Assembly: GCF_900170035.1 (NCBI RefSeq)
Contig: NZ_LT828542.1
Coordinates: 229,994-293,993 of the forward strand
Direction of reading: 5' to 3'
Source of the DNA: Desulfamplus magnetovallimortis
GTDB lineage: Bacteria; Desulfobacterota; Desulfobacteria; Desulfobacterales; Desulfobacteraceae
DNA length: 64,000 bases
The notes beneath the pieces were generated by a model, which was not told where the DNA came from, did not search any database, and was given only the letters and a program-made list of their open reading frames with translations. Positions 57,952 to 58,625 of the stretch are shown here, one piece after another. The stretch's first letter is position 1. Each line of letters begins with the position of its first letter. A program made the position numbers and the translations under genes.

Positions 57952-58125
57952 CTACTTGATTATGTTTTCTGGTTTAATTCCAGTGGAATCAGATTTTTCT
58001 ACCTGTTTTCCCGTCACCTGACAGGAATTTCTCATTCATGTTGAAATTCCCATTTTGGGAAGAATATAGAGCTGCATCAACAGATACACTCCAATAATAA
58101 CAATAAAAAGGACTATTTCCTGCAT
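57952..58125 (-). CDS. Small membrane selenoprotein candidate (in-frame UGA at 58036-58038)
   Basis: The ATG at 58125 has a perfect AAGGAGG nine bases upstream. Twenty-nine codons encode MQEIVLFIVIIGVYLLMQLY, then ILPKMGIST, one transmembrane helix. A TGA follows, and the frame stays open for 27 more codons (MRNSCQVTGKQVEKSDSTGI, then KPENIIK) to a TAG at 57952. Immediately after the UGA is a hairpin matching a bacterial SECIS element. If UGA is selenocysteine, the 57-residue protein has a U-x4-C motif (Sec30, Cys35) just past the membrane helix, suggesting a redox role at the membrane. If UGA stops translation, a 29-residue membrane peptide results. Genes for SelA, SelB, SelC and SelD are not in this window. 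Confidence 0.75.
58008..58038 (-). promoter_or_regulatory. Candidate bacterial SECIS element
   Basis: On the minus strand, after TGA (58038-58036) and eight bases, TTCCTGTC pairs with GACGGGAA around the loop AGGT (58019-58016). The stem is eight pairs, one of them G-U. The loop begins 16 bases after the UGA; in E. coli fdhF the equivalent loop AGGUCU begins 17 bases after. A guanine in the first two loop positions, which SelB reads, is present. Confidence 0.75.
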
Positions 58126-58418
58126 TATGGGTGACCTCCTTCTATTATGAAATAAATTATTTTTATTTATCCTGACTTTACCGTGAAAATACCCCTCATC
58201 ATTTTCATAATCGGGGGTGGCACTGCAAAGACAAGGCATTCCTTGTCTCTACTGCCATGATGGTTTAATCCATTCAACCAGATGCTGTTAAATTCAATAA
58301 CCATCTTATGATCACTCAAGTTCATGAAAGTCAGAATATGTTTTAACGCTAAATGTATGCACTACAAATAAGGATACAAGGGCACAAATCATATTTTTCA
58401 ACAATTTAAAGGATTAAA
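58126..58418. repeat. Gap with family C fragment and family E palindrome
   Basis: TTTACCGTGAAAATACCCCT (58176 on) to TAATCGGGGGTGGCA is a reverse, shortened family C unit. AAGACAAGGCATTCCTTGTC, then TCTAC at 58227-58251 is a family E copy. They separate the selenoprotein start from the divergent Cys-rich gene. The region also holds the promoters of both. Confidence 0.65.
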
Positions 58419-58625
58419 ATGCAAATGGGTAAATGCCGAAACCACCCGGACAGGGAGACACCATACCAGTGCATGAAACACAACTATTTTCTATGTAACG
58501 AATGCCTTCAATGCAGTGACCCCGATATTTACTGCAAATTCAGATCATCATGCCCTATTCACTTCTCTTCCAAAAAAGGCTTTGACAAGGAAGAAGAGAA
58601 AGAAAAGACAGAGATCAACGGATAG
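58419..58625 (+). CDS. Cys/His-rich small zinc-binding protein
   Basis: A 68-residue protein with seven cysteines and several histidines: CRNHPDRETPYQCMKHNYFL, then CNECLQCSDPDIYCKFRSSC and PIHF. The spacing CxxH...CxxH...CxxC resembles a B-box-like zinc finger. Small proteins of this pattern are familiar in sulfate-reducing deltaproteobacteria but have no assigned role. The tail is a charged run (KEEEKEKTEING). It precedes the Nudix gene by about 40 bases on the same strand, so they are likely co-transcribed. Confidence 0.7.
   Translation: MQMGKCRNHPDRETPYQCMKHNYFLCNECLQCSDPDIYCKFRSSCPIHFSSKKGFDKEEEKEKTEING

Follow-up and report, generated by a model that had tools for sequence, protein, structure and literature searches.

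The window, a stretch of 64,000 nucleotides from Desulfamplus magnetovallimortis, carries on its minus strand a 57-residue reading frame interrupted by a TGA codon, and by every available computational test this is almost certainly a true selenoprotein gene, although no protein or 75Se data are available. The explanation we consider best for the whole, namely a membrane selenoprotein with the topology, redox role and operon context described below, is given a probability of about 0.88. According to this explanation, SelB and tRNA-Sec would decode the UGA at codon 30 as selenocysteine, directed by a SECIS hairpin, and translation would run on to the TAG, yielding 57 residues.

The gene and its SECIS hairpin

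The original prediction proposed a 57-residue frame with an in-frame TGA followed by 27 open codons and a cysteine five residues further on (U-x4-C). This frame is borne out on the minus strand (58125..57952), where it encodes MQEIVLFIVIIGVYLLMQLYILPKMGISTUMRNSCQVTGKQVEKSDSTGIKPENIIK, with TGA at codon 30 (58038..58036), Cys at codon 35, and 27 codons between the TGA and the TAG stop. The plus-strand reading of 57952-58125 does not yield the 57-residue protein. The ribosome binding site that had been proposed is found just 5' of the ATG and is a strong one, and a Shine-Dalgarno-like core is present in 114 of 157 family copies. The features of the gene are presented in Table 1.

Table 1. Positions of the predicted selenoprotein gene and its parts in the window.
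Feature	Position	Strand	Basis
CDS, predicted 57-residue selenoprotein	57952..58125	minus	ATG 58125..58123, TAG 57954..57952; conserved in relatives
Ribosome binding site AAGGAGGT, 8 nt 5' of the ATG	58134..58141	minus	sequence
Single transmembrane helix, about residues 4-22, ending in an LPK break	58060..58116	minus	sequence, AlphaFold2
In-frame UGA, predicted to be read as selenocysteine (U30)	58036..58038	minus	TGA conservation in relatives
Cys35 codon (U-x4-C)	58021..58023	minus	spacing kept in 150/157 copies
SECIS hairpin	58008..58027	minus	8-bp stem, 58027..58020 with 58015..58008; loop AGGU, 58019..58016
Hydrophilic, fast-evolving C-terminal tail, translated 3' of the hairpin	57955..58005	minus	codon-periodic substitutions; disordered in the model

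Mechanical calling of open reading frames produces a 67-residue ORF, which begins at an earlier ATG and is terminated by the UGA. When the conserved start with its ribosome binding site is used and the UGA is taken as the stop, a 29-residue peptide results, as had been anticipated for a conventional reading. Given that both neighbours lie on the opposite strand, the gene appears to stand alone in the window. A 68-residue Cys-rich ORF with no Pfam match (MQMGKCRNHPDRETPYQCMKHNYFLCNECLQ...) is located at 58419-58625 on the plus strand; relatives of this ORF occur near the selenoprotein gene in four loci, the window included.

An eight-pair stem (TTCCTGTC with GACGGGAA) closing an AGGT loop 16 nt past the UGA had been described, and it is present exactly as described, with the stem starting 8 nt past the UGA. 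The fold has a predicted energy of -14.2 kcal/mol, which alone is only mildly unusual (z = -1.85, with 7 of 200 shuffles as stable). The bSECIS model, as quoted in PMC13188914, demands a loop of 3-9 nt, a stem of 4-16 bp, a G in the first two loop positions, a distance of 16-37 nt from the UGA and a minimum free energy at or below -7.5 kcal/mol. The window hairpin, with a 4-nt AGGU loop, 8 bp, 16 nt and -14.2 kcal/mol, meets this published model.

Chance is excluded by conservation with compensatory base changes (i.e., changes that keep the stem paired) rather than by the fold. Over 97 distinct sequences, pairing holds in 87.1% of cells (82.8 ± 0.6 in shuffles), and covariation scores 0.204 where shuffles give 0.129 ± 0.009, none of the 500 being as high. 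Control hairpins slid along the sequence all score lower than the true register. The count of pairs changed on both sides, taken alone, is not unusual (132 of 500 shuffles). One telling pair, between base 3 of the Cys codon and base 1 of a Thr or Ala codon, covaries: U-A in TGT...ACA and C-G in TGC...GCA. The loops of the family are AGGU or AGUU, and those of distant members fit the SECIS core less uniformly. An Rfam search around the gene returned only sub-threshold chance matches and no SECIS family.

Distribution, probable topology and gene neighbourhood of the family

When the 57-residue product was used as a query against 193 related genomes, about 156 matched at E < 1e-4 and 169 at E <= 1, with one internal TGA read through in nearly all. 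A profile of 33 members, applied to 394 genomes across the phylum, found the family in 159, with TGA in all matches listed. The family occurs in most of the Desulfobacterales genomes sampled and in some 40% of those sampled across the phylum. A pattern scan of 84,980 prokaryote species, with one genome per species, gave 580 matches, 498 of which are confirmed relatives; the best 80 of these 498 loci hold 81 copies, and TGA occupies the Sec position in all 81. This combination of frame, UGA, hairpin and Cys is found in well over a hundred species; among the named carriers are Desulfonema magnum, Desulfosarcina widdelii, D. alkanivorans and Desulfobotulus alkaliphilus.

Family members were also found in Eisenbacteria (6 of 47 genomes at E <= 1e-4, with TGA in all those read) and in one Margulisbacteria bin; mis-binning is not excluded in either case. 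Two matches that seemed to lack the stop were rejected: L223, from the Margulisbacteria search, is an unrelated longer protein with a similar helix, and G625, from the Eisenbacteria search, has the TGA just past the matched part. A search of plasmids for the family gave no match.

The core motif is [IV]LP[KR]xG[IV]xTU-x4-C. P, G and U are invariant in the 157 distinct copies, T precedes U in 153 of them, and U-x4-C is kept in 150, the remaining seven having a Cys after Sec at a longer in-frame spacing (e.g., L116, L119, L124 and L133). In these four loci, insertions of one to many codons lie between Sec and the next Cys, where the SECIS is located. Two loci (L062:4657-5043 and L159:5776-6162) contain tandem diverged copies of the gene, each with its own UGA and hairpin.

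The one-helix membrane segment that had been predicted is supported by the AlphaFold2 model, which presents a helix over residues 2-26, with a pLDDT of about 92 over residues 1-20, the remainder being disordered or of low confidence. Positive residues average 4.4 on the C-terminal side of the helix and 0.5 on the N-terminal side, and the former is higher in 156 of 157 copies. From this charge distribution alone, it is probable that the N-terminal helix is an anchor and that the C-terminal side is cytoplasmic, which would hold Sec and Cys, within LPKxGxxTU-x4-C, at the cytoplasmic membrane surface, followed by a disordered cationic tail. A reversible selenenylsulfide may link Sec30 and Cys35, in which case the protein would act at the membrane, to which it is tethered, as a selenol redox relay or a peroxide/disulfide reductase; this is a tentative proposal, inferred from the motif alone, and the function is untested.

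The gene neighbours in relatives vary, and most loci, the window included, are without operon partners. In 34 of 156 loci the gene is followed at once by a co-oriented ECF sigma gene, which is found at no other place in those stretches; in 23 a zinc-finger anti-sigma gene is also there. A Tat-type Fe-S protein is encoded nearby in 22 loci and a small multi-helix protein in 19, with the same orientation and immediately upstream in nearly every case; 11 loci have the complete set. The recurring operon, seen in L056, L062, L063, L143, L148 and others, runs from the Fe-S protein through a 4-helix membrane protein, which has no Pfam family, to the selenoprotein, the ECF sigma factor and a zf-HC2 anti-sigma factor. 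In L149, L152, L160, L165, L195 and L199, from Desulfosarcina and relatives, the selenoprotein gene and its ECF sigma gene are preceded by genes for a histidine kinase, an NtrC-type regulator and a lipoprotein-like protein. Part of the Desulfobacterales would make the selenoprotein from a shared operon, alongside a small multi-helix membrane protein, an Fe-S protein exported by Tat and an ECF sigma factor with its anti-sigma factor; this company suggests a role in membrane redox or envelope stress.

A different use of the same two residues has to be weighed. Sec30 and Cys35 could instead be ligands, at the membrane surface, for a metal or metalloid (Cu, Hg, As or Ni), the protein being a membrane-bound soft-metal chaperone or sink. 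The selenoprotein gene shares its strand with a copper-exporting P-type ATPase gene in 8 of 156 loci, and lies near it in 5, yet the association is limited to these eight. Such binding would be favoured by the FeoB and DtxR-type regulator genes that flank L056 and its relatives, and by the linkage of other predicted selenoproteins to metals (PMC13188914); however, a few members depart from the usual U-to-C distance, and a second invariant Cys or His is lacking. We regard metal binding as rather unlikely, though not negligible. Together, the operon partners and the copper ATPases point to membrane redox, envelope stress or metals, without deciding among them.

Relation to known selenoproteins

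Searches of Pfam and NCBIfam (June 2026) gave no match to the window protein and none that was convincing for the members of two alignments. A PHROG match was weak and was rejected as not convincing. Neither this motif nor any U-x4-C family is listed among the 119 prokaryotic selenoprotein families catalogued in 2026. The family is apparently unannotated, although an earlier mention in supplementary alignments or in the 2007 Olavius study is not excluded. Since that study and supplementary tables fall outside the comparison, the protein might still belong to a family already described, such as a hypothetical protein of the Olavius symbionts or an entry in a supplementary table. This is improbable: NCBIfam of June 2026 has models for many such families, none of which matches, the catalogue contains no U-x4-C family, and the motifs of OS_HP3 and DW are RxU and GxU, not STU.

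Like bacterial selenoprotein genes at large, of which E. coli fdhF is an example, the gene presents an in-frame UGA, a complete SelA/SelB/SelC/SelD machinery in its genome, and, 16 nt past the UGA, a hairpin with a G in the first two loop positions. It differs in encoding a single-pass membrane protein of about 50-60 residues with no known domain, in its U-x4-C motif, and in that Cys homologues, which are usual but not required, were not found. OS_HP3 (dual CXXC) and hypothetical protein DW, both covered by NF041197, are likewise small predicted selenoproteins of related bacteria, and DW is reported in Desulfosarcina widdelii PP31, which also carries the small selenoprotein (L160). Unlike the present family, they have an RxU or GxU motif, and Cys homologues are reported for DW; the NF041197 model matches none of 43 small-selenoprotein members.

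The eukaryotic proteins SELENOK and SELENOS have one transmembrane helix, a cytosolic C-terminal side and Sec in a disordered tail. The predicted architecture of the window protein may resemble this, judged only from the modelled helix over residues 2-26, the low-confidence tail and the positive-inside charge bias; their Sec, however, is near the extreme C-terminus and their SECIS is eukaryotic, and no sequence relation is evident. The FeoB-associated Cys-rich small membrane proteins (PF12669) consist of an N-terminal helix and a short metal- or redox-active tail. The window protein resembles them in having a single N-terminal helix followed by a short tail, yet it has no Pfam match, and it has one Sec and one Cys in place of a Cys cluster.

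Evidence for reading through the UGA and the search for a Cys form

The original prediction would have been refuted if no homologue continued past the UGA, if the genome had no Sec machinery, or if conservation were confined to the 29 residues 5' of the TGA. None of these is the case, and the candidate selenoprotein is supported: relatives read on past the UGA, conservation is strong across it, and selA, selB, selC and selD are all present in the host genome (6.68 Mb, 97.3% complete, with the window in contig C3). The respective matches score 595.6 bits for selA, 361.5 for selB, 76.6 for tRNA-Sec (selC, against a cut-off of 47) and 370.4 for selD, which lies at C7:116941-117864 (L217) and has one TGA read through. 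Given tRNA-Sec is found in 364 of the 394 genomes across the phylum, its co-occurrence with the small selenoprotein has no power as a test. Ten carriers lack a strong tRNA-Sec match, and these are mostly fragmented assemblies. Seven genomes without the gene retain selA, the gene being absent there and not converted; hence, the gene is dispensable.

Because the hairpin overlaps the conserved codons that follow the UGA, coding was tested 3' of the hairpin. Frame 0 is open for at least 12 codons past the UGA in all 157 copies, against 37 and 93 for the other two frames. In ungapped tails of equal length (41 independent pairs), changes at codon positions 1, 2 and 3 number 281, 227 and 324 (p = 2e-4), whereas past the final stop the pattern is different (480, 437 and 391). 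The pN/pS ratio is 0.23 5' of the UGA and 0.59 in the tail, the latter being biased low since the tail was aligned as protein. That the UGA is a true stop, ending a 29-residue membrane peptide, with the hairpin as a conserved regulatory RNA or mRNA-stability element, can scarcely be maintained: such a peptide is plausible, and RNA constraint accounts for part of the conservation where the hairpin overlaps the most conserved post-UGA codons, but frame 0 is never closed, the tails change codon-periodically 3' of the hairpin, Cys is retained at longer in-frame spacings, and the stop is always UGA, never UAA or UAG, in a host with Sec machinery.

Under the selenoprotein reading, the U position has Sec, never Cys, in the copies examined. 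A scan of 84,980 species with the Cys-codon pattern LPK[ML]G[IV]STC gave five matches, none of them a relative, and no Cys form was present in any of the fetched loci. It is possible that a Cys form exists that is too diverged for these searches. The deep-Sep study of 2025 (PMC12013277) states that every known selenoprotein now seems to have a Cys homologue, and it admits that its filter may drop any selenoprotein without one; Desulfosarcina widdelii PP31 was among the genomes scanned. As this strain carries the small selenoprotein, the family appears to be a case dropped by such a filter. Annotation and selenoprotein finders may have passed over the family because it always has Sec and not Cys.

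The family spans hundreds of sulfate-reducer-type bacterial species. With somewhat less than even confidence, we suggest it is an old, widespread Sec-only family in which selenium is chemically irreplaceable, invisible to finders based on Cys homologues, and that it may be a selenol sensor at the membrane surface that feeds into an ECF sigma response. If true, genomes either keep the Sec gene or lack the gene altogether, and such a Sec-only family would be a direct test of when sulfur cannot replace selenium. The family also suggests that further small selenoproteins are hidden behind UGA "stops".
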